IMG/VR virus record: IMGVR_UViG_3300006749_000200
Span: 1-20,076 of that record
Source of the DNA: a virus
Strand: one strand, 5' to 3'
DNA: 20,076 nt
The notes under the pieces were generated by a model that saw nothing but the letters and a program-made list of their open reading frames with translations, ran no database searches and was not told where the DNA came from. The translations under genes and the position numbers were made by a program. Shown here in pieces: positions 1,906 to 19,678 of this stretch (the first letter of the stretch is position 1; each line of letters starts with the position of its first letter).

Positions 1906-2203
1906 TTTCCAAACACACGGATACAGGCTCGGGATGCTCTTCGGATTGAAGCCTAAGCAAGTCATGGAAGGCGTCAGGTTGTACAACACAATCATCACTC
2001 ACGACATGTGGAACAGTAAGAGGTCAAGGGTATCGCTGATGACGGATTGCATGTATCTGATGGGCAAGAAGTACGAAACAGGCATAACAATTGAAAAGGC
2101 AAAGGTACTCACAAGGGAAGAGTTCGGTGTGGAGACACAGCCGAGGCCCAACACTTGGAGTGAACTGCGTGATGTTATACTCAGACATAGCAAGTCTCCA
2201 TGA
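1898..2203 (+). CDS. hypothetical protein, 101 aa
   Basis: ATG 1898 overlaps the end of the zinc protein gene by 8 bp, and the 3' end overlaps the next gene (start 2172) by 32 bp. The protein is helical and moderately basic. A hydrophobic middle (YNTIITHDMW, LMTDCMYLMG) is followed by a charged region ending in RHSKSP. The pattern GLKPKQVMEGVRLY resembles a short helix-turn-helix-like segment, but not strongly enough to call. No family recognised. Confidence 0.5.
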   Translation: MSSFQTHGYRLGMLFGLKPKQVMEGVRLYNTIITHDMWNSKRSRVSLMTDCMYLMGKKYETGITIEKAKVLTREEFGVETQPRPNTWSELRDVILRHSKSP

Positions 2204-3449
2204 GCATTATTACTACGGTAGGAAGAATCCACTGATAGAGACTCTCAGAGAGGCAGAAGACCAGTATATATCCGATTTGGCTACCATACTGTTCGCAGAG
2301 AGGTGCGAGGTGTGGTCGTTCGCGAAGATGGTATCACACGTGGCACGCACCACAGAAATCTTTCCTGATGTCGTAATCGATGTGGTGAAGAATAAAGAAG
2401 GCTTGATTGACAATCTAGTGAGTGAGTCAGGCAATGCGAAGAGATGGAGCGTATCTAAGGCTGCGAGCATGATGATTGCTTTCACCAAGCAGACATCACC
2501 CATCACCTTCCTAGACATAGCGAAGGAAATCAACCAAGTCGAGGCCCGTCTTTTCTGGAGGACCGTGTTAGGTGCTCGCAAGAGGATAACCAAAGAGACA
2601 TTCTTGAGAGCAGTCTTGCGCAACGGCGTGGATGGGAGTGTATTGTTGCGTGGTAGGTTGCTTGGTGATAACATAGAACTCCATGATGCCATACAGACCA
2701 TGCTGCACTCTCCTGAACGATTCAGCGATGACTCATTCACAATCTACGTACCTAGAAGGGTGAAGGCTTGGAGAAACACAGTGAACTTGAAAGAGTACAA
2801 TGGTGGTCTGTGTCAATTGATAGAGGGGAAAGGCAGCAGAACCATAGAACACAGGGATGACTGTGTTGTGGAGAAATCGAAGCAGGGTCAGATTTACGAT
2901 GCGTTCTTCCCTGATGAGCCTGATTTGTCATTGAATGAGAGATTGTCGAGGCTCAGTGGGCTTGATGTGCTGATGCCCGTTGCAATACCATCTTGGTCAA
3001 CCATAGAGGACTGGGCAGAGAAGAACACGGTCAGGTTTCCGAATACGAATCCGTATGATGTTCAACAGGAAGGCGCTCATATACTCGTCCTTGATTACCA
3101 CATACACCCTGTGCGTCTCTCATGGTACAAGGCGGGTGAGATTGATATCGAACTGGGTATCGAAGTGCTTGATGGCACTGACTACTTCCAAGTCGGGAGT
3201 GTGAAGACGACTACTCTCGATGAAATGTCTTATGTCTACAGGGCATTGAAGCGTTATGATGTGAACGAATTACCGAATGTTGGCATCAAGTACGAATTAC
3301 CAGCACATACTTGTGTTGTTATGTCTGTATCCTCTCCCTCATTTAATTCGACTGGGATGTGTTTTGAGCACGCTGTCTTCCACCAGATTGAGAATAACAT
3401 GGGAATAACCGACCTTACTCAGTTGGTTGATTTGATGGTGATGGAATGA
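2172..3449 (+). CDS. divergent ATP-dependent DNA ligase-like protein, active site degenerate
   Basis: Start ATG 2172 has GGAGTGA at 2157-2163. The 425-aa product follows the archaeal/eukaryotic DNA ligase plan by eye. Residues ~90-150 resemble the end of the DNA-binding domain (ARLFWRTVLGARKRITKE). Residues 207-215 (KEYNGGLCQ) sit where motif I (K-x-D-G-x-R) belongs. Residues 242-261 (YDAFFPDE then NERLSRL) resemble motif IIIa, E300-G motif IV, and W318-Y-K motif V. Residues 337-352 (DYFQVGSVKTTTLDEM) resemble the OB-domain start, and a C-terminal SVSSPSF segment matches the ligase tail. The expected catalytic Lys aligns with Glu208 (K207 is one residue off), and the stretch that should carry motif III is missing: motif I to IIIa is only ~33 residues. 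It may be a ligase pseudo-enzyme, a nicked-DNA binding factor, or a highly diverged active ligase. The assignment is inferential. Confidence 0.45.
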   Translation: MLYSDIASLHEHYYYGRKNPLIETLREAEDQYISDLATILFAERCEVWSFAKMVSHVARTTEIFPDVVIDVVKNKEGLIDNLVSESGNAKRWSVSKAASMMIAFTKQTSPITFLDIAKEINQVEARLFWRTVLGARKRITKETFLRAVLRNGVDGSVLLRGRLLGDNIELHDAIQTMLHSPERFSDDSFTIYVPRRVKAWRNTVNLKEYNGGLCQLIEGKGSRTIEHRDDCVVEKSKQGQIYDAFFPDEPDLSLNERLSRLSGLDVLMPVAIPSWSTIEDWAEKNTVRFPNTNPYDVQQEGAHILVLDYHIHPVRLSWYKAGEIDIELGIEVLDGTDYFQVGSVKTTTLDEMSYVYRALKRYDVNELPNVGIKYELPAHTCVVMSVSSPSFNSTGMCFEHAVFHQIENNMGITDLTQLVDLMVME

Positions 3450-3843: not shown

Positions 3844-4791
3844 ATGTGGAATGAAAAGTCGAGGCCTAGTCGTGTTGAAGACATAGCAGGTAACTCCGAG
3901 TTGAAGTCCAATATACTATCTTGGCAGACTAATGGAGCCCCTGCTGCCCTTCTTTTCGTAGGTCCACCGGGCACCGGTAAGACCACCACTGCTAGAGTCA
4001 TAGCGAATATGATGCTAGGAGATGATGTAGAAGTCAATTATGAGGAGACCAATGGCTCTGATGACAGAGGGATATCATTCATCCGTGAGGACTTGAAGAC
4101 GTTCCTCCGTGTAAAACCGTTAGGCGTTGAGAGGAAGGTCATTCTGATAGACGAGGCTGATGGGCTAACGACTCAGGCACAGGATGCCATGCGTCAACTC
4201 ATAGAGAACTACTCACACAATGCTCTCATAATAATGACAGCGAATGAGATGGAGAAGATTAGACCTGCCATCCGTTCAAGGTGCGCCACTTACAGATTCA
4301 AACCGCTGACGCCAACAGAGGGGGCTGCGAGGCTCTGGGATGTCTGTAAGACATGTGGTGTCCCTGATGGTGTGCTCAATGAATGGTCGAAGAGCCTACC
4401 TGCTTTGGTCGAGCACATGAATGGTGACCTTCGCTCATGCATTAACATCTTGGAATCACTACCACAAACCACTCTAGCGCTCTACAACAGAGTTGAGAAG
4501 ATACAGGCAATGGCATCGGTTGACTTGGCAGAACTCGTAGCCGAGGGCCAGTTCATGAAACTGAGGAACAAACTTCATCTGATGCTAGATAACGGCAGTG
4601 ACTTGCGAGCGGTGATGAGCGTGCTTTACAGGGATATGAAGAAGCAACTCGACGCATCGCTGACCGATACGAGCCTATTCGACGCGATGGTGGCCTATGG
4701 GGATATCATGACCCACATCTACACATGGCCTGACAATGCACATTCCTTCTGCGACTACATGGTCGCAGCAATAAGAAGGGAAACAAGGTGA
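3844..4791 (+). CDS. rfcS: clamp loader ATPase, RFC small-subunit type
   Basis: A 315-aa AAA+ protein, close to the usual ~320 aa of archaeal RFC small subunits. It should load the sliding clamp onto primed DNA using ATP. Visible motifs: an RFC-box-like N-terminus (W2-N-E-K-S-R-P), Walker A G40-P-P-G-T-G-K-T47, Walker B with D103-E-A-D106, and the SRC motif with its arginine finger at S145-R-C147. These are followed by a lid domain and a helical collar. It is first in its operon, just after promoter copy 2, with the ssDNA-binding, PCNA-like and polymerase genes downstream. No second, large RFC subunit is in the window, so it may form a homo-pentamer or combine with host RFC-L (inference). Confidence 0.92.
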   Translation: MWNEKSRPSRVEDIAGNSELKSNILSWQTNGAPAALLFVGPPGTGKTTTARVIANMMLGDDVEVNYEETNGSDDRGISFIREDLKTFLRVKPLGVERKVILIDEADGLTTQAQDAMRQLIENYSHNALIIMTANEMEKIRPAIRSRCATYRFKPLTPTEGAARLWDVCKTCGVPDGVLNEWSKSLPALVEHMNGDLRSCINILESLPQTTLALYNRVEKIQAMASVDLAELVAEGQFMKLRNKLHLMLDNGSDLRAVMSVLYRDMKKQLDASLTDTSLFDAMVAYGDIMTHIYTWPDNAHSFCDYMVAAIRRETR

Positions 4792-4796
4792 ACACA

Positions 4797-6176
4797 ATGA
4801 GTGAAGAACATAAAGCCGAAATGGAAAAAATGATGAACGACAGTAGTGGTGCTGGAAATCCTTTCAACAAGGCACAGCAGATGCAACAGCAGCAGAGCGA
4901 GCAGACTCTGCCGCAAGGTGTTCTTGAGAGAATCGAGAAGACCGCTGAGAGGACGGGTGAGTCCAAGCAGGAGGTTGCAAACTTCTATCTGAACTACATA
5001 CAGAAGGAGTTCGGATGCGATGATTGGTCTTCTGAGGATGAGGACTTACTCATAGATTGGGCTGAGTCGGCATTCGTAGCGACTAGGAAGGGACCGACCA
5101 CAGGTGCTGGAAACGAGATGTACGTCGGACAATTCGTAGGCGTCGATGCTCGTTCCGACAACCGTGGCACAGGTCTGATGAACTGGATATCGAGGTTGTA
5201 CAGGAACGACCCGAACGAGGCAATGGCACGTGGTGCGGGTCACTACGTCGTCAGCAATGGCCTTTGGAGTGTTGAGACCGCCAATGGAAAGATAGATACC
5301 TCGCAATCAGCGGAGGAAGAGCCTGCTTGTGGTATACACTTGGGCGGCAACGACTACATCTGCTTCGTCAGCAAGAACGGTAGCCCGTACAGCGTTGATG
5401 AGATGGGCAGGTACGCTTGGTTCCTCGGCAACTCCAAGGAAGCCTTCGTCAATGAGGGAAGAATCGAGTTGTGGCGTGTGGACCTGAAAGGCGAGGACAC
5501 CGCTAGGAGAATCAGAGTTGGAGAGCCATGCGTCATATCAGCAAGGCCACCACGCGAGAATGATGAGTACAGGAAAGACGTGCTCGATACGAGAGAGGGC
5601 TTCATAGACACAATCAATTATCGTGATGACTTCGTTGACGAGGACGTCAGGAAACTGCTCAAGCCATCGATTTACTGGACAAGTAGCGAGTTCCATGACA
5701 TGTTCGTGAATCTCAGTGAACTAACCGAGGCATACGAGTCAGGCTCAAGAGAATGGTCTAGCAAGGATGGAAGGTCAGGTCGCACCGGTCCCTTGGTATT
5801 CGTGAAAGGCAACGTGGTCCGTATGTCAACAGACGCACGTGAAACCGAGTACGACGAGGGAGGCAGGTCATACAGCCTCTCCGTGTCATCAACCGGATTA
5901 CAATCGATGTACGGCGGAGGTGCTGGTTCAGAGGTGCTTTGCAACATAGGAAGCGCTGTCCATGACATGACCACGCCCTTCCACTTCACGGACACAGACG
6001 GTGAGAAGTACAACTATGCCGAAGGCAGTACCATCTTCGTGTTCGGTCGTATAGGCATGATGAGAAGAGACAACACAGAGGTTCCCAAACTGACAGCGTT
6101 CGGTATCTATTGCGACTCACGTCGCGCTCGTAAGGGTGCGTCGGGTGGTAATGCAGACCCATCGCAGTTTGAGTGA
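4797..6176 (+). CDS. probable OB-fold ssDNA-binding protein (RPA-like)
   Basis: The start is ATG 4797 with AAGGTGA (4785-4791) upstream; an in-frame GTG at 4788 is the alternative. The 459-aa product has an acidic, Met/Gln-rich N-terminus with a Q tract at residues 27-36. A long middle is rich in beta-strand and aromatic residues. The C-terminal region (~331-440) has an OB-like strand pattern (GPLVFVKGNVVRM and, from ~411, STIFVFGRIGMM), and the tail is S/G-rich. Its place between clamp loader and recombinase genes, its acidic character and the OB-like strands suggest replication protein A function. I see no zinc finger, which many archaeal RPAs carry. Other possibilities are a different replication accessory protein or a virion protein. 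Moderate to low certainty. Confidence 0.45.
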   Translation: MSEEHKAEMEKMMNDSSGAGNPFNKAQQMQQQQSEQTLPQGVLERIEKTAERTGESKQEVANFYLNYIQKEFGCDDWSSEDEDLLIDWAESAFVATRKGPTTGAGNEMYVGQFVGVDARSDNRGTGLMNWISRLYRNDPNEAMARGAGHYVVSNGLWSVETANGKIDTSQSAEEEPACGIHLGGNDYICFVSKNGSPYSVDEMGRYAWFLGNSKEAFVNEGRIELWRVDLKGEDTARRIRVGEPCVISARPPRENDEYRKDVLDTREGFIDTINYRDDFVDEDVRKLLKPSIYWTSSEFHDMFVNLSELTEAYESGSREWSSKDGRSGRTGPLVFVKGNVVRMSTDARETEYDEGGRSYSLSVSSTGLQSMYGGGAGSEVLCNIGSAVHDMTTPFHFTDTDGEKYNYAEGSTIFVFGRIGMMRRDNTEVPKLTAFGIYCDSRRARKGASGGNADPSQFE

Positions 6177-6398: not shown

Positions 6399-7345
6399 TG
6401 GCTGGTTTCGGAAAGACCGCTGCGGCACAGGCAGAGTTGAACGACGCTGCCTTGCCGTCGCACGAGAGGAAGAATCCCTTCGCCGCTCTTGAGGCGGAGA
6501 TGTCAACCATGTCCGACAGGATAGGGCACACATTCGTGGGCTTGGTCGGTAATGAGAACACAGGGAAGACAGCCGTCGTCACCTCGGCGTACAACAAGTA
6601 CGTGAGCGAGGGCGGGGAGAAGAGCCTGTGGGCATTGGACTTCGATGGGGGCGCTCAAGCGAACAAGAGCGCCTTCTATCCTGACTTGGACTCCATCGTG
6701 GTGTGGGAGCCGTACGTCTACATGACGAACGACAGGACGGCCATAGACTACCCTGAGACGCACAACAGGACGATGAGACTCCTACAGTACGCTGTGCACA
6801 ACAGCGAGAAACTATGGGGTGTGCTCATCACTGGACTTGACGGCTTCGATAGCGTGTGTATCAACAACATGAGGATACACGACCTCGGGCTCAGCAAGGA
6901 TGCGATTTCCGCTGCTGACGTACGTGGAGCAGGAGCAGATAACAGACGAGTCGAGTTTCAGTGGGACTGGGGACTGCGTAAGACGAGGTTCCTGCAACTG
7001 ATAACGCTGTGCAGGGGTCTTGTGAAGAAGGGAGTCAGGGTGTTCCTTGAGACTCATCTAGCACAGACCAATGAAAACGACGAGCGTTCACTGCGACCCA
7101 TGAGCGGAACGAGACCGGCATGGGAGAAATCAACCGCTGGACTCGTGTTCCAAATCATTCTCTTTGAGAGGGAGGATGTCAGGGACGAGAGCGGGAACCT
7201 GACCAACCAGCGCTTCACTGCGACATACGAGAAGAGCAAGACTGATGCTGGTCTACAGGGTCAGAGGCGCATAGTTCTCACCACCGAGGCTGGTGGTAAG
7301 CCAGTCTGGTATGGTTTGCAGGAACTTGAAGAAGGGCGGCTTTGA
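6398..7345 (+). CDS. RecA/RadA-superfamily ATPase, Sak4-like
   Basis: Start ATG 6398 shares its A with the preceding TGA. The 315-aa product carries Walker A G51-N-E-N-T-G-K-T58. A Walker B-type segment VLITGLDGFDS has D148 and D151, and a later strand ends in ETHLAQTN, like the sensor region of RecA-fold proteins. The RADxxR-like loop and N-terminal HhH domain of host RadA are absent, which favours the phage Sak4 / AAA_24 group over a full RadA. The likely role is ATP-dependent strand annealing or recombination-driven replication, working with the neighbouring ssDNA-binding protein. Superfamily confident, exact subfamily less so. Confidence 0.75.
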   Translation: MAGFGKTAAAQAELNDAALPSHERKNPFAALEAEMSTMSDRIGHTFVGLVGNENTGKTAVVTSAYNKYVSEGGEKSLWALDFDGGAQANKSAFYPDLDSIVVWEPYVYMTNDRTAIDYPETHNRTMRLLQYAVHNSEKLWGVLITGLDGFDSVCINNMRIHDLGLSKDAISAADVRGAGADNRRVEFQWDWGLRKTRFLQLITLCRGLVKKGVRVFLETHLAQTNENDERSLRPMSGTRPAWEKSTAGLVFQIILFEREDVRDESGNLTNQRFTATYEKSKTDAGLQGQRRIVLTTEAGGKPVWYGLQELEEGRL

Positions 7346-7346
7346 T

Positions 7347-8108
7347 ATGGTTAAGGTAGTCCTTGATGCTAAGGTATGGAAATCCATGCTGTCTTCGATA
7401 GGAGACAAGATGGAGGATGTGCGCATCGTCGCATCGTCTGATGACTACATCGAGTACGATGCGGCGTTGAGCACGCACTACATACATTACAAGCAGAAGC
7501 ACGATGATGCTGTCAAGGCTGCTGGAAACCTGACATTCTCCGATATGAAGAAGACGAATGCGTTCCTGTCCAAGTCGAAGGGAAACGTCACAGTCTCCGA
7601 GTTGAATAACAAGTTGGTGATGCAGAATGGAAGTAAGAAGATATCCATCCCTGTGCAGTCATGCAAGACAGCGCAACTCGCGCCCACCATGTCTAGGCTC
7701 ATATTAGAATGTGAGACAGGTCAGTGGAGGAAGTTCGGAAGGAACACAGAACTGAGCACACATGGCAAGGTTCTGTTCTCAGACCTGATTGACGGGGCCA
7801 ATATAGCGAAGTCGCTCAGCGTTGACTCTGAGTTTCAAATCAAGGCGAATGCGGAGGAGAGCGAGATAGTGCTCCATGCCTACAAGAGAGGCGGCTCTGC
7901 ATTGACATGCTCAGCAGATGTGGAAGATGCCGAAGGACCGAATCACACGATAGTATCGTCGTTCGGCTCTTGGCTGCTCTCCGCATTGTCCGTCTTGGAT
8001 GACAAGACCCTATCCACATTCCACTGCGGTGACGCAGCACCTCTGATAGTTGTGCAGAGTGGAGAGGATTGGGAGCGTAAGATAGTAGTGATAGACCAAG
8101 AGGCTTGA
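7347..8108 (+). CDS. pcn: PCNA-like sliding clamp
   Basis: ATG 7347 lies one base after the preceding TGA and gives 253 aa, the usual PCNA length (~245-260). The sequence is divergent but has the PCNA rhythm of alternating strands and short helices. It has an N-terminal VVLDAKVWKSMLSSIGD helix, a central connector around residues 110-130, and a C-terminal half with LLSALSVLDDKTLSTFHCG then APLIVVQSG, resembling the last clamp strands. It lies between the recombinase and DNA polymerase B and in the same unit as the clamp loader, which supports its role as processivity factor. I see no obvious canonical PIP-box at the polymerase C-terminus, so the contact may have diverged. Confidence 0.75.
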   Translation: MVKVVLDAKVWKSMLSSIGDKMEDVRIVASSDDYIEYDAALSTHYIHYKQKHDDAVKAAGNLTFSDMKKTNAFLSKSKGNVTVSELNNKLVMQNGSKKISIPVQSCKTAQLAPTMSRLILECETGQWRKFGRNTELSTHGKVLFSDLIDGANIAKSLSVDSEFQIKANAEESEIVLHAYKRGGSALTCSADVEDAEGPNHTIVSSFGSWLLSALSVLDDKTLSTFHCGDAAPLIVVQSGEDWERKIVVIDQEA

Positions 8109-8110
8109 GT

Positions 8111-10477
8111 ATGATAATCGATTACTTCTTCCCGAACGGATTCGATTTCGTGGAGGAGCCTCATCTGTATCTGCGTACGAGGGACGAGAAGGGAAACTTG
8201 CAGAGCGATATAATCACACCACAGGATGACAGGTACATCTCCCCATTCTGCTGGATACCCGTTGAGACCCCTAGAAGGTCGATTGACAGGATACAGAGGA
8301 TGTTCACAGGTCTTGCAGTGCATTGGGATGTACGTGCTAAGGGCAGGGACGGTATTGAACTCATGAAAGTGACAGTGCCCAATCCCTCTCAACTGTGGAA
8401 ACTCAAGGACCAGATACGAACGTACGAGGCTGATGTGCCATACGAGGACCAAGTGCTCCTACACATGTTTCCTGAGAGGCTCAGCATGCCTGACTTTCAT
8501 CCGAGGGTGTGGTACTTCGACCTTGAGTGGGACGTCAATACGGATGCCACCACTGTGATGGCGGTTGACGATACCCATGCCAAGCACCCTATCGTCTTCG
8601 CTTGGAGTCAGGAGAGCGAGGGACAGGATGGCGTGACCATCGACTTCATCGACAGGGAAGGGGGATATGAGAGGAGGTTGTACGGCTCAGAAGGTGAGAT
8701 GCATGATGCCTTCCTCGACTACATGGAGGAGTGCGACCCTGACATACTCATAGCACACGCAATCGCTTGGGCAGACCTTCCACACCTGATGAGGCGTCTG
8801 AGCGACCCTGACAGGCTCAGTCCTGTAGGCAACGTGATGAGGCCGCATGTGAAGAACGGATACAAGGAGACAGCACAGCCAATCACAGGTCGTCTGATAC
8901 TGGACACAGCAGCCAAAGGCAATACAGGGAGCGGCATAGAGTCATTGTGGATTAAGTCGGGAAGGGGAAACCTACCCAACCGTAAACTACAGACCATCGC
9001 TGAGGAACTCGGTCTCTCAGGAAAGATACAGGAAGATGAGGATGGGAACAAACTCGATGTCAGGACATGGTGGTACAGTCACTTCGATTTGTTCGTGGAC
9101 TACTGCCTTGTCGATACCACGGAGTTGCGTAAGATTTGCGACATGATAAACTTCGTTCCCTTCTTCACGACGGTCCAACGGTTCTGCGGCGTTCAGATGA
9201 AGAGCACGCACAGAGTCACCAACTACCTACGTGGTATGTTCGGGCGCTATACGGAGTTGAAGGCTCCCTCATCCTTCAGATACAACAGGGAGCATCTCAA
9301 GGCGGCGAATGTCTTTGCTAAGGAGGGTGGTCTGTACGAAGGCGTCCTGCTCGGTGACTTCGCCTCCCTGTACCCTCAGATAATGATAGGGGCCAACCTG
9401 TGCCCTACTACGAAATACACAGGTAAACCACGTGAGGGAATCATCACCATGCCTGATGGTTCAATGTGGTTGCCCTCTAGTGAGAAGAAGGGTATACTCC
9501 CAACTATAATGCAGGACCTTCTAACACTGAGAAAGGAGTACAAAGCAAAGATGTACGACGCTACCACGAATGAGGAGAGACTCAAGTGGGACATGATGCA
9601 ACTTGCTGTGAAGATTCTAGCGAATGCTGCCTATGGGTACGTGTCGCAATCCAAGGTGGGAGGCATGTGGACCGACCCCGATGTTGGTGGGGCAATCACG
9701 TCAATGGGACGTAAAGCCATAGACACACTGGCATCCAAAGCGGAGGAGAAGGGCTACAAGGTCCTTGCAGGACACACTGACTCCTCCTACATACAAGTGC
9801 CATTCGATGAGGTGAATGCGCTTGTCGAGTATCTTAATGAGTCCATACAAGCAGAATTGCTCTCGACACTCATCGTTGAGGCCGAGGCATATTTCGATTA
9901 CTTCTTCATAGGCTCATCTAAGAATAGGAACTTCGGTATCATAAAATGGCCGGAGAGTAAGAAAGGACACCTGAAGGTGACAGGGTTTGAGCATAAGTCA
10001 GCAAATGCATCACCAATCACCAAAGAGATTCAGAATCAAATTTTCCATCTAATAGGCAGCGGTGCCAGTGAGAGTGATGTATCGGAGTTGATAAGACCGA
10101 TAGCATTGAGATTAAAGAAGGGACAGTATACCGCTAATGAATTAGCGCCTTATGGTAGGTTAGGTAAAGCAAAGTACGAGAGAGTACCACCTAACGCCGC
10201 TAAAGGCGCGATATACTACAACGAGCACTTGGCTACCAATGACCCTATTCGTGTGTTCGATAGCGCACAGTGGCTATATGTCAATGAGGTTCCAACTGGT
10301 AAGCCCTACACTAACATCGTATCATACAGGGATGAATCCGAAGTAAAGGACTTCTCGATTGACTACAACACAATGGTTGACAAATTCATCAAAGCAAAGA
10401 TAAAACCCATCTATGACGTCCTTGGTTGGGACGTTGGTTATGCTTGCGGTGATAAGGTTCCAAAGAAATATTGGTGA
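8111..10477 (+). CDS. polB: family B DNA polymerase with 3'-5' exonuclease
   Basis: The replicative polymerase, 788 aa, starts at ATG 8111; a TTG at 8105 would add two residues. Exonuclease: Exo I D137-L-E139 in YFDLEWD, Exo II in HAIAWADLPHL, Exo III in DYCLVDTTEL, so proofreading appears intact. Polymerase: a YxGG-like segment EGGLYEG, motif A D416-F-A-S-L-Y-P, motif B K501-I-L-A-N-A-A-Y-G509, motif C H555-T-D557-S. Motif C has His where most family members have the first Asp of DTD; the second, metal-binding Asp is kept. Motif B has NAAYG instead of the common NSxYG. There is no intein. It lies between the clamp and a MazG-like gene. Confidence 0.97.
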   Translation: MIIDYFFPNGFDFVEEPHLYLRTRDEKGNLQSDIITPQDDRYISPFCWIPVETPRRSIDRIQRMFTGLAVHWDVRAKGRDGIELMKVTVPNPSQLWKLKDQIRTYEADVPYEDQVLLHMFPERLSMPDFHPRVWYFDLEWDVNTDATTVMAVDDTHAKHPIVFAWSQESEGQDGVTIDFIDREGGYERRLYGSEGEMHDAFLDYMEECDPDILIAHAIAWADLPHLMRRLSDPDRLSPVGNVMRPHVKNGYKETAQPITGRLILDTAAKGNTGSGIESLWIKSGRGNLPNRKLQTIAEELGLSGKIQEDEDGNKLDVRTWWYSHFDLFVDYCLVDTTELRKICDMINFVPFFTTVQRFCGVQMKSTHRVTNYLRGMFGRYTELKAPSSFRYNREHLKAANVFAKEGGLYEGVLLGDFASLYPQIMIGANLCPTTKYTGKPREGIITMPDGSMWLPSSEKKGILPTIMQDLLTLRKEYKAKMYDATTNEERLKWDMMQLAVKILANAAYGYVSQSKVGGMWTDPDVGGAITSMGRKAIDTLASKAEEKGYKVLAGHTDSSYIQVPFDEVNALVEYLNESIQAELLSTLIVEAEAYFDYFFIGSSKNRNFGIIKWPESKKGHLKVTGFEHKSANASPITKEIQNQIFHLIGSGASESDVSELIRPIALRLKKGQYTANELAPYGRLGKAKYERVPPNAAKGAIYYNEHLATNDPIRVFDSAQWLYVNEVPTGKPYTNIVSYRDESEVKDFSIDYNTMVDKFIKAKIKPIYDVLGWDVGYACGDKVPKKYW

Positions 10478-16080: not shown

Positions 16081-16251
16081 ATGAACGAAGAAGAATACAG
16101 ATTAAAAATAGCATTAGATAGACTGATTACAGCGATATCGAGTGGGGCTGCGTTGTCAGACCTCATGAGAATGACAGCACAAATATCAGTGGCCGTCGGC
16201 TGGCCTTTTGGGGAGAACGGCGAAAATAAAGAAGGAAGTGAAGAGGAATGA
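16081..16251 (+). CDS. hypothetical protein, 56 aa
   Basis: ATG 16081 lies one base after the exonuclease stop, with GGAGTGGT just upstream. The 56-residue product is mainly helical (YRLKIALDRLITAIS, then LSDLMRMTAQISVAVG) with an acidic tail, and its stop overlaps the chaperonin ATG. It could be a small partner of the chaperonin or exonuclease. No family recognised. Confidence 0.55.
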   Translation: MNEEEYRLKIALDRLITAISSGAALSDLMRMTAQISVAVGWPFGENGENKEGSEEE

Positions 16252-17747
16252 GCGAAGAAAGAAAAGACCCGTTGCACAGCAACATAAGAGCAGCAAGAGC
16301 GATAGTGAACACAGTGAGGACCACACTCGGCCCGAGAGGTCGAGACAAGATGATGGTCGATGCAGGTGGTAATGCCATCATCACGAACGATGGTGCGACC
16401 ATATTGCGTGAGATAGAGGCAGGCCATCCTGCTGCTAAGATGATTATAGACATCAGCAAAACTCAGGAGAGCCTGTGCTACGACGGAACGACATCTACGG
16501 TGGTCCTAGCAGGACAGATGCTGGCTGACTCTGAGAACCTCTTCAGCAAGGGCGTTCACCCGTCGCTGGTGTGTGATGGCTACAACAAGGCGGCACGCAT
16601 GGCTGTCGAGTATCTCGATGAGAATCTATCATACGAGCCTGATGAGGACGACCTGCTGCGTGTGGCTGAGACGGCAATATCAGGAAAGACCCTAGCGTCA
16701 GCGAAAGACATAGTATCGAGGCTCTGCGTTGATGCAGTGAAAGCCGCTGGTGATGCTGACAAGGTGAACGTGCTGTCCTTCCCCGGTGGGGCACTGACTG
16801 ATTCTCATTTATTCAGAGGTGTGGTGGTCAATAGGGACTATGCTATTGAGATGGATATACCCGTCGAATCCAACGTCGTTCTACTGATGAGTGGTCTGGA
16901 GTCTGAGAAGGAGATGGAGCACTTGCAGATACAAGTGACTGACATGAGACAGTACGAGGCTGTGCGTCAACGTGCTGGACAGACACTGACACAGAATGTC
17001 AAAACGGTGGCATCCATGCTACCAAACGGTGGTGTGCTTTTCACGAGGGACAATGTGGAAGACTCAGCCTTAGCCTACCTGCACAAGAACGGCATAGCAG
17101 TGGTTAAGAGAGTGCAAGAGAGCATCATGCGCTCCTTGTCGTCGGCCATAGGAATCCGAGTCTCGCATTCAATCGATGACTTAGAAGCAGCAGCACCATG
17201 CAAGATAGTCAGGCAGAAGCACAATGATGTGCACTATCTTTTCGTGGAGGGAGAGGTTGAGTCAACTCAATCGACTCTAATCATACGCGGTGCAAGTCAC
17301 ACAACTCTTGATGAGGTCGAGCGTGGATTCGATGACGCTCTTGGTGTCGTATCACTGGTTATGAACGGAGGGAGGATTGTCGCTGGTGGCGGCTCCACGT
17401 ACGCTGCCATAGCCAGTCATCTCAGAACCGAGGCACCGAAGATACAGGGAATGGAGCAGATGGCAATCAACTCATTCGCTGATACACTTGAGATTATTCC
17501 AGCGACCATAGGTGAAGTAGCGGGACACACTCCGTTGAATTGCGTGTTCTCACTCAGGAACGCGATAGCAGAGGGTATGTACACGTTCGGGCCTGATGTG
17601 GAGAAGATAAACGAGATAGTGGACATGAAGGAGATTGGAGTCGTTGAACCAGTGCAACTCGTTCGTCAAGCCATACTCAGCGCAACTGAAGTCACTACTG
17701 CTATTCTGAAGATAGACGACATAGTGGTGAAAAGAGGCGAGCAATGA
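16248..17747 (+). CDS. thsA: group II chaperonin (thermosome subunit)
   Basis: A 499-aa subunit of the ATP-driven folding chamber; cellular subunits are ~540-550 aa. ATP-binding and hydrolysis motifs: TTLGPRGRDKMM (residues 25-36), TNDGATIL (46-53), D79-G-T-T-S in the CYDGTTST segment (cellular form GDGTT), catalytic D363 in FDDALGVV, and AGGGSTYAAIA near 378. The last lacks the Glu that usually follows GGG by two residues. The apical domain keeps the helical protrusion that acts as a built-in lid (GLESEKEMEHLQIQVTDM). The Gly/Met-rich C-terminal tail is absent. Only one subunit gene is present, so a homo-oligomer or mixing with host subunits is possible. It may fold viral capsid or replication proteins. 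Confidence 0.95.
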   Translation: MSEERKDPLHSNIRAARAIVNTVRTTLGPRGRDKMMVDAGGNAIITNDGATILREIEAGHPAAKMIIDISKTQESLCYDGTTSTVVLAGQMLADSENLFSKGVHPSLVCDGYNKAARMAVEYLDENLSYEPDEDDLLRVAETAISGKTLASAKDIVSRLCVDAVKAAGDADKVNVLSFPGGALTDSHLFRGVVVNRDYAIEMDIPVESNVVLLMSGLESEKEMEHLQIQVTDMRQYEAVRQRAGQTLTQNVKTVASMLPNGGVLFTRDNVEDSALAYLHKNGIAVVKRVQESIMRSLSSAIGIRVSHSIDDLEAAAPCKIVRQKHNDVHYLFVEGEVESTQSTLIIRGASHTTLDEVERGFDDALGVVSLVMNGGRIVAGGGSTYAAIASHLRTEAPKIQGMEQMAINSFADTLEIIPATIGEVAGHTPLNCVFSLRNAIAEGMYTFGPDVEKINEIVDMKEIGVVEPVQLVRQAILSATEVTTAILKIDDIVVKRGEQ

Positions 17748-18973: not shown

Positions 18974-19678
18974 TCAGTCCTCAAATGTGTATTTTATCAC
19001 TAGGTCTGATGCACTTGTCGTTCCGTTGCTGTTCGTGGCATCTGCTCCGATGGTGAATGTCACTGTGTCTCCGTCTGATGGGAAGATGAGGCCACCTCTC
19101 CCACCACCCCAATTAATATCACCAAACGCACCTATGCCTTGTGTATCACCAAGACCAGTACCATAAGTTAACGCGTCTTGGTCTGTTGATGCTGACGAAC
19201 TCCCAATTGGAAATGATATAGAAGCACTACCAGCACTGAGACTCGATGACACGCTCAAACTCCATTGGAAACTTGTCGCACTGCTTTCTACTATGTATCC
19301 TAGAAACGCTATCGACGCTTTAAATGAGTGCCCTGAGTAAGCAGCGTTCAAGTCGCTTGCGGAATTCGATATGTCTATTGTTATGTCTGCCTGTCCGTCG
19401 GTGAAATCACTATGCGATACATCGAACTGGTCTGCACCATCCGGGTTGGAGGCGTTTTGTGCGTTGCTTATCTCCTGTGCATTCATTTTGAAATTAGCAG
19501 ACGGGTTTCCGCTAGATGCAGCGGCTATACCAACGTTTGTTGGATTCGGTGATGTACCTTGAAGAGATGGCGCACTACCGCCACCGCCACCGCCACCGCC
19601 ACCGCCACCGCCACCGCCACTGGCATTGGCAGTCTCAAGTTGCTGTGCAGTTCCAGCGACACCAAGTATGAAACCCAT
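18974..19678 (-). CDS. structural protein with poly-glycine linker, fibre- or spike-like
   Basis: A 234-aa protein rich in Ser, Ala, Gly, Asn and Thr with few charged residues, typical of exposed virion proteins. A short hydrophobic N-terminus (MGFILGVAGTAQQLETANA) leads to 14 consecutive glycines (~residues 21-34), then a low-complexity segment. The region from ~75 is beta-rich (ADITIDISNSASDL, SFQWSLSVSSSLSAGS) and ends in GDTVTFTIGADATNSNGTT. This suggests an N-terminal anchor, a flexible linker and a beta-sandwich or receptor-binding head. It lies directly between a fibre-like gene and the methyltransferase. No specific family recognised. Confidence 0.65.
   Translation of the reverse strand: MGFILGVAGTAQQLETANASGGGGGGGGGGGGGGSAPSLQGTSPNPTNVGIAAASSGNPSANFKMNAQEISNAQNASNPDGADQFDVSHSDFTDGQADITIDISNSASDLNAAYSGHSFKASIAFLGYIVESSATSFQWSLSVSSSLSAGSASISFPIGSSSASTDQDALTYGTGLGDTQGIGAFGDINWGGGRGGLIFPSDGDTVTFTIGADATNSNGTTSASDLVIKYTFED
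19578..19619 (-). repeat. perfect hexanucleotide repeat, 7 copies
   Basis: Seven tandem copies of CCGCCA on the (+) strand (GGT-GGC or equivalent alternating Gly codons on the (-) strand) encode the 14-glycine linker of the structural protein. Unit length is a multiple of three, so slippage would change linker length by two glycines per unit without a frameshift. Confidence 0.9.

Follow-up and report, generated by a model that had tools for sequence, protein, structure and literature searches.

A very probably catalytically dead descendant of the three-domain magrovirus replication-cluster DNA ligase

Introduction

The middle domain of the poxvirus protein A20 is an inactive DNA ligase, and A20 is part of the polymerase processivity factor (PMC11142717). 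Structural work without catalysis is also described for DNA ligase IV, which is reported still to support end joining when catalytically dead (PMC3694833, PMC9638927); the inactive ligase IV proteins were made by engineering point mutations into an active enzyme, whereas the protein considered here appears to belong to a natural dead family. In magroviruses, a DNA ligase is encoded by almost all vOTUs (PMC10160649), an ATP-dependent ligase is listed in the ICTV profiles (PMC12999244, PMC10768690), and the viruses are thus described as needing hardly any replication factors of the host (PMC10768690). The magrovirus ligase has been placed beside the prohead protease (PMC7318539).

Here we analyse a ligase-like gene in a virus record of 20,076 bases, the whole of which is referred to below as the window. 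According to Pfam, the window encodes an AAA clamp loader, a family B polymerase, a PD-(D/E)XK nuclease, an ERCC4 nuclease and a Cpn60/TCP-1 chaperonin, a gene content that fits a magrovirus of marine Poseidoniales archaea.

Results

The gene and its neighbourhood

The plus-strand open reading frame (ORF) at 2172–3449 opens with an ATG at 2172, encodes 425 residues and closes with a stop codon at 3447–3449; it contains the K207-E208-Y-N-G stretch reported in a preliminary description of the sequence. The start Met is shared by the relatives in the family alignment. The features of the gene and of the replication genes that follow it are:

2172–3449, plus strand: pseudo-ligase gene, 425 residues, first in the ligase-RFC-RPA-PCNA-PolB run (ORF, fold, family and synteny)
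2172–2756, plus strand: residues 1–195, helical and DNA-binding-domain-like (all-helix model; boundary approximate)
2793–2804, plus strand: motif I position, E208-Y-N-G211 as against K-Y-D-G, with Lys to Glu and Asp to Asn (HHalign and family alignments)
2805–2894, plus strand: shortened segment at the place of motifs Ia and III of intact ligases (motif spacing)
2895–2900, plus strand: motif IIIa remnant Y242-D243 (D243 invariant in the family)
3024–3041, plus strand: motif IV region N285-TVRF-P290, R288 conserved, motif Glu absent (model strand 286–288; alignment uncertain)
3075–3092, plus strand: motif V strand A302-HILVL-307, Lys absent (model strand 303–307; alignment uncertain)
3093–3446, plus strand: OB-fold domain, with motif VI (RFPRxxRxRxDK in intact ligases) lacking its basic residues
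3446–3820, plus strand: 124-residue protein between the pseudo-ligase and RFC (ORF; no Pfam hit)
3844–4791, plus strand: RFC small-subunit-like clamp loader (PF00004 AAA, 2e-19; DNA_pol3_delta2, 1.4e-15)
4788–6176, plus strand: RPA-like protein, tentative name (no Pfam hit; conserved gene order)
7293–8108, plus strand: PCNA-like protein, tentative name (no Pfam hit; conserved gene order)
8105–10477, plus strand: family B DNA polymerase (PolB), unsplit (PF00136, 5.9e-35)

The names RPA-like and PCNA-like, and likewise primase-like and MCM-like, are given to proteins with no Pfam hit and follow resemblance and gene order only. The start of the pseudo-ligase gene (2172–2203) overlaps the end of an upstream 101-residue ORF (1898–2203) that has no Pfam hit, and a similar ORF occupies this position in L005. 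Elsewhere in the window, a thermosome (Cpn60/TCP-1) gene at 16248–17747 is 78% identical to L073, and a minus-strand ORF at 18974–19678 encodes 234 residues with an unbroken glycine run near the N-terminus; the adjoining minus-strand ORFs may belong to the late module.

Predicted fold

Pfam gives no hit for the window protein at E values of up to 10, and the protein fails the cut-offs of PF04675, PF01068 and PF04679; no ligase came up when the protein and its family were searched with HMMER in Pfam, PHROGs, NCBIfam and PDB sequences. The sole ligase-named hit, to DNA_ligase_OB in one family member (E 0.099), is at chance level and was discarded.

An AlphaFold2 model built from an alignment of 19 relatives (mean pLDDT 76.3, pTM 0.49) gives a different picture of the same protein in fold searches. 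Its best Foldseek match is the archaeal ATP-dependent DNA ligase 3rr5 (E 4.8e-11), all PDB matches below E 0.001 are ATP-dependent DNA ligases, and viral ligases stand on top of the BFVD list. The best whole-chain structural matches are the ligases of Thermococcus (3rr5), Pyrococcus furiosus (2cfm) and Archaeoglobus fulgidus (3gde), with which the window protein shares 11–14% identity and from which it differs by the loss of the active site. VIA-align matches residues 1–425 to the A. fulgidus ligase with Z 13.4, the rmsd of 14.9 over 352 residues being attributed to domain arrangement. In the VIA rows, residues 1–195 line up with human ligase 1 beginning at its residue 287, and the same region aligns with the PF04675-positive domain of the intact sister ligases described below. 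A second AlphaFold model, of the long-form distant relative L065 (pLDDT 81.8), yields a Foldseek E of 8.1e-15 and a VIA Z of 15.1, and its nucleotidyltransferase (NTase) domain superposes on ligase III-alpha with 2.9 Å over 163 residues. Whole-chain matches in both Foldseek and VIA thus place the fold composed of a DNA-binding domain (DBD), an NTase domain and an OB domain in two family members; given the pTM of 0.49–0.50 and the large whole-chain rmsd, the way in which the domains are arranged in the models is provisional. The fold search backs the DNA-binding domain, motif IIIa (YD243) and OB domain that had been recognised by eye, and a ligase fold is present in the predicted structure.

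Profile homology and loss of the catalytic motifs

When the profile of the dead family was compared with that of intact sister ligases, HHalign gave an end-to-end match of 401 columns with a probability of 97.8% (E 9e-13). Control profiles, whether ligase profiles reversed or column-shuffled or profiles of neighbouring genes, reached at most 0.5%, and the resemblance is therefore not one of chance. The late ligase family, considered as the closest source of the pseudo-ligase, was rejected on a match of 40 columns with a probability of 1.0%.

The same alignment sets E208 on the Lys of KYDGNRYQ (EYNGGLCQ in the window protein), both for the whole family and for the long-form subgroup taken separately, in agreement with the earlier claim that the acceptor Lys is lost. 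A hand alignment that placed motif I at E218-G-K-G was ruled out by the profile alignment and the long-form relatives, which assign the E208 column. The Lys, Asp and Arg of motif I are all lost in the window protein. Among the 33 distinct sequences of the dead clade, none has KxDG; all eight members of the window's subgroup carry E or D at the Lys position, which elsewhere is D (L012), N (L062, L063), E (L066, L023–L026) or K (L064, L065, L067, as KYNG), while in several other members motif I is not recognisable. The L064/L065/L067 subgroup keeps the Lys, yet has lost the motif V and VI residues.

Motif I and motif IIIa are separated by 35 residues in the window protein, 70 in the long forms and 88–97 in intact ligases, which upholds the earlier observation that the motif III region is missing: about 55 NTase residues with motifs Ia–III are deleted relative to the intact sisters, and motif III with its catalytic acidic residue is absent. 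The long forms retain a motif Ia-like RDRSG, against FNRKG. The window sequence has no motif IV (EGxxxK), V (KxK) or VI (RxDK), the exact alignment of IV and V being uncertain; the motif IV/V-like segments of the preliminary description can thus be recognised by position, but their catalytic residues, and those of motif VI, are gone. Net charge of the whole protein is –2 to –25 in the dead family versus –16 to +4 in intact ligases, and the extra acidity lies mainly in the NTase and OB parts, the DBD having a net charge like that of intact ligases.

Intact sister ligases in the same gene slot

A magrovirus contig that had been misbinned in a 'Maricaulis' MAG (L075) came up in a search for reference ligases; it encodes a split PolB and a 518-residue ligase that clears the PF04675, PF01068 and PF04679 cut-offs (the one sister tested). 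On this contig the ligase gene is followed by several small genes and then by RFC, RPA-like, PCNA-like, PolB-N, PolB-C, nuclease, primase-like, ERCC4, MCM-like and exonuclease genes, which is the order of the window. A viral scan added 68 further split-PolB contigs with an intact ligase (L082–L149); these viruses are probably Aoguangviridae-like. Motif I reads KYDG[NA]RYQ in all 67 intact-clade ligases that cover it, and motif VI (RFPR...DK) is present in 67 of 68.

Intact and dead genes alike precede RFC, RPA-like, PCNA-like and PolB in all contigs long enough, except that in L005 PolB stands ahead of the PCNA-like gene. The gap from the ligase gene to RFC is 26–849 bp in the dead clade versus 1.6–2.9 kb in the intact clade. 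The split-PolB magrovirus ligases (L075, L082–L149) therefore resemble the window protein in gene slot, three-domain plan and end-to-end profile homology, and differ from it in being 505–549 residues long with all catalytic motifs intact, against 425 residues without the catalytic residues.

In a tree of RFC, dead (30 rows) and intact (47 rows) viruses are split by one branch recovered in all bootstrap trees (100/100). The tree is unrooted, and the intact state is taken as ancestral because it matches cellular ligases. HHalign, synteny and the RFC tree together give full-length profile homology within a shared slot, as descent would leave. Intact KxDG homologues, which the preliminary description had named as a finding that would speak against it, are confined to this separate sister clade; standing in the same slot, they support degeneration.

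A family of at least 33 relatives under purifying selection

Relatives were gathered through profiles of PolB, the RPA-like protein and the pseudo-ligase family; the collection scans were seeded from short peptide patterns and so are non-exhaustive, which makes the family count a lower bound. At least 33 distinct relatives were found, 29 of full length (419–470 residues, trimmed) and L189, L190, L191 and L193 in addition, with identities to the window protein from 93% down to 20%. Wherever a related contig extends to the slot, the gene is there, ahead of RFC, RPA-like, PCNA-like and PolB. GenBank phage records contained no relative of the window protein, of L016 or of the late degenerate domain described below, and the first scan of a genome collection with the family profile returned zero relatives. 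The only copy in a cellular bin, L080, is on a magrovirus contig that was wrongly binned with a bacterial MAG. The MAG labelled Maricaulis (G023; L073, L075, L080) holds at least two magrovirus contigs, one per clade, which points to misbinning.

Invariant or nearly invariant residues (window numbering) are E11, G16, S84, W129, F144, D243, R257, R288, D334, G335, G411 and Q417, D243 and R257 being the only invariant ones in the NTase region. Judged from the sequences, this is a set that could not form a nucleotidyltransfer site.

The reading frame is open in all 33 or more members, and the gene is present in every contig covering the slot. Between the window protein and its 92%-identical relative, dN/dS is 0.071, which indicates purifying selection; PolB (0.054) and RFC (0.076) are comparison genes, and PolB, RFC and RPA together range over 0.054–0.077. 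Close pairs of pseudo-ligases give about 0.07–0.19. At longer range the pseudo-ligase diverges faster than its neighbours, with 40% identity between the window and L036 versus 48–60% for RFC, RPA-like, PCNA-like and PolB.

Other ligases in the two clades

A second PF01068 protein of 838–875 residues occurs in 13 of 14 intact-clade records, with intact motifs in all 11 that were read out. Its dead-clade equivalents are late-module ORFs of 1,718–1,890 residues (L041–L047, L162–L167, L194, L195) just upstream of a prohead-protease-like gene, the place assigned to the magrovirus ligase in the literature (PMC7318539). Their ligase domain lacks a Lys at the spacing of KxDG and has lost the Glu of motif III and that of motif IV where these could be aligned; the degraded domain was found in 15 of 17 dead-clade contigs of at least 67 kb, a set in which all contigs may be incomplete and which includes two (G009, G092) whose replication slot was not seen.

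A KxDG ligase is present in three of these 17 contigs (G003, G008, G006), and in the other 14, which may be incomplete, no ligase with intact motifs was found. G003 and G008 carry an extra small KxDG ligase of 379–386 residues, possibly an acquired replacement. A truncated relative lies at a contig end in G081 (L039, L040 and L161 are the loci concerned). G006 (IMGVR_UViG_3300030110_002054; L025, L038) combines a dead-clade replication module with a late ligase 48–62% identical to those of the intact clade, and is perhaps a recombinant virus or a chimeric assembly. The 15 related records searched for them yielded neither an NAD-dependent ligase nor an RNA ligase, save weak hits to the latter within the L038 ligase of G006.

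Discussion

Sequence and structure prediction make it very probable that the window protein is a catalytically dead descendant of the three-domain ligase of the magrovirus replication cluster. The preliminary description had left the choice between a pseudo-enzyme and an unusual compact ligase; the former is strongly supported, and the latter is unlikely. That a dead ligase occupies the slot in which sister viruses hold an intact one suggests retention for a structural job, and the explanation that we favour overall, with some reserve, is a dead ligase descendant kept as a non-catalytic replisome subunit. The ATP-dependent DBD-NTase-OB ligase of the replication cluster has very probably lost catalysis and would have stayed on as a structural subunit at the viral replication fork, where its DBD and OB domains may contact DNA or other replisome proteins. 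Nick sealing would fall to the ligase of the host, and in a few viruses to the extra small ligase. Retention of the DBD and OB domains beside clamp loader and polymerase, with catalysis lost, fits such a role. The more acidic NTase and OB parts favour protein contacts over DNA wrapping, and DNA could still be bound by the DBD; simple retention of DNA wrapping is what the acidity argues against. Among non-catalytic jobs, that of a replisome scaffold is somewhat better than an even bet.

The non-catalytic alternative is that the dead ligase holds nicks or 5' ends, excluding host ligase and nucleases or timing Okazaki sealing, and is not structural. It would account for a DBD kept in model and sequence with a charge like that of intact ligases, and for a gene that stays beside the clamp loader; we regard it as unlikely, since the NTase and OB parts have turned more acidic, motif VI has gone, together with most of the basic residues that would face DNA, and clustering with RFC and PolB is unneeded for such a role. 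Far less probable is a compact enzyme, nucleotidyltransferase or ligase, that has rebuilt its active site and remains active. Purifying selection and the subgroup that keeps its Lys as KYNG agree with it, and Lys-x-Asn-Gly is found in active tRNA ligases; however, the NTase region is invariant at two positions only, most members in which the motif can be recognised carry E, D or N in place of the Lys, and the window protein is without the motif I Lys, III Glu, IV Glu, V Lys and VI RxDK.

Open frames in all members, a slot filled wherever it is covered and the low dN/dS values make a decaying, functionless gene marginally less credible again, although divergence faster than that of the neighbouring genes is what decay would produce. 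The lowest probability of all goes to an unrelated helical and OB protein matched by chance in AlphaFold and Foldseek: the failure of HMMER to name a ligase and a pTM of about 0.5 would suit it, but two models, profile–profile homology with clean controls and a slot shared with an intact ligase stand against it.

The replisome-subunit reading resembles poxvirus A20 in that a dead NTase-OB ligase module is encoded with viral replication machinery (PMC11142717), the two proteins being compared by general ligase fold only. The ends of A20 bind its partners D4 and E9; the window protein, for its part, has a complete DBD-NTase-OB shape, comes from an archaeal virus with RFC and a PCNA-like protein, and has a living intact sister clade. 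Its dead ligase fold and its clustering with replication genes are observations made on genes and models. A report of a dead replication-cluster ligase in magroviruses was not found in the literature consulted, which sustains the earlier impression of an undescribed form as far as this virus group is concerned; an inactive ligase domain in a viral replication protein as such is known, namely that of A20 (PMC11142717).

A wider proposal, which we put forward tentatively and hold at rather less than even, is that the active sites of both ancestral ligases of the dead clade, that of the replication cluster and that of the late module next to the prohead protease, have been lost while both proteins were kept as non-catalytic parts in replication and packaging, with the host sealing nicks. 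For annotation, the statement that almost all magroviruses encode a ligase (PMC10160649) is to be read beside the 14 of 17 long dead-clade contigs for which none with intact motifs was found.

The clade would represent a natural, clade-wide case in which a replication ligase became a protein that is no longer an enzyme. An intact sister clade is available for comparison, and the partly degraded KYNG subgroup and the long form lie between the intact and the dead state. It would be the second case, after poxvirus A20 and in a different virus group, of a ligase becoming a probably structural replication protein.
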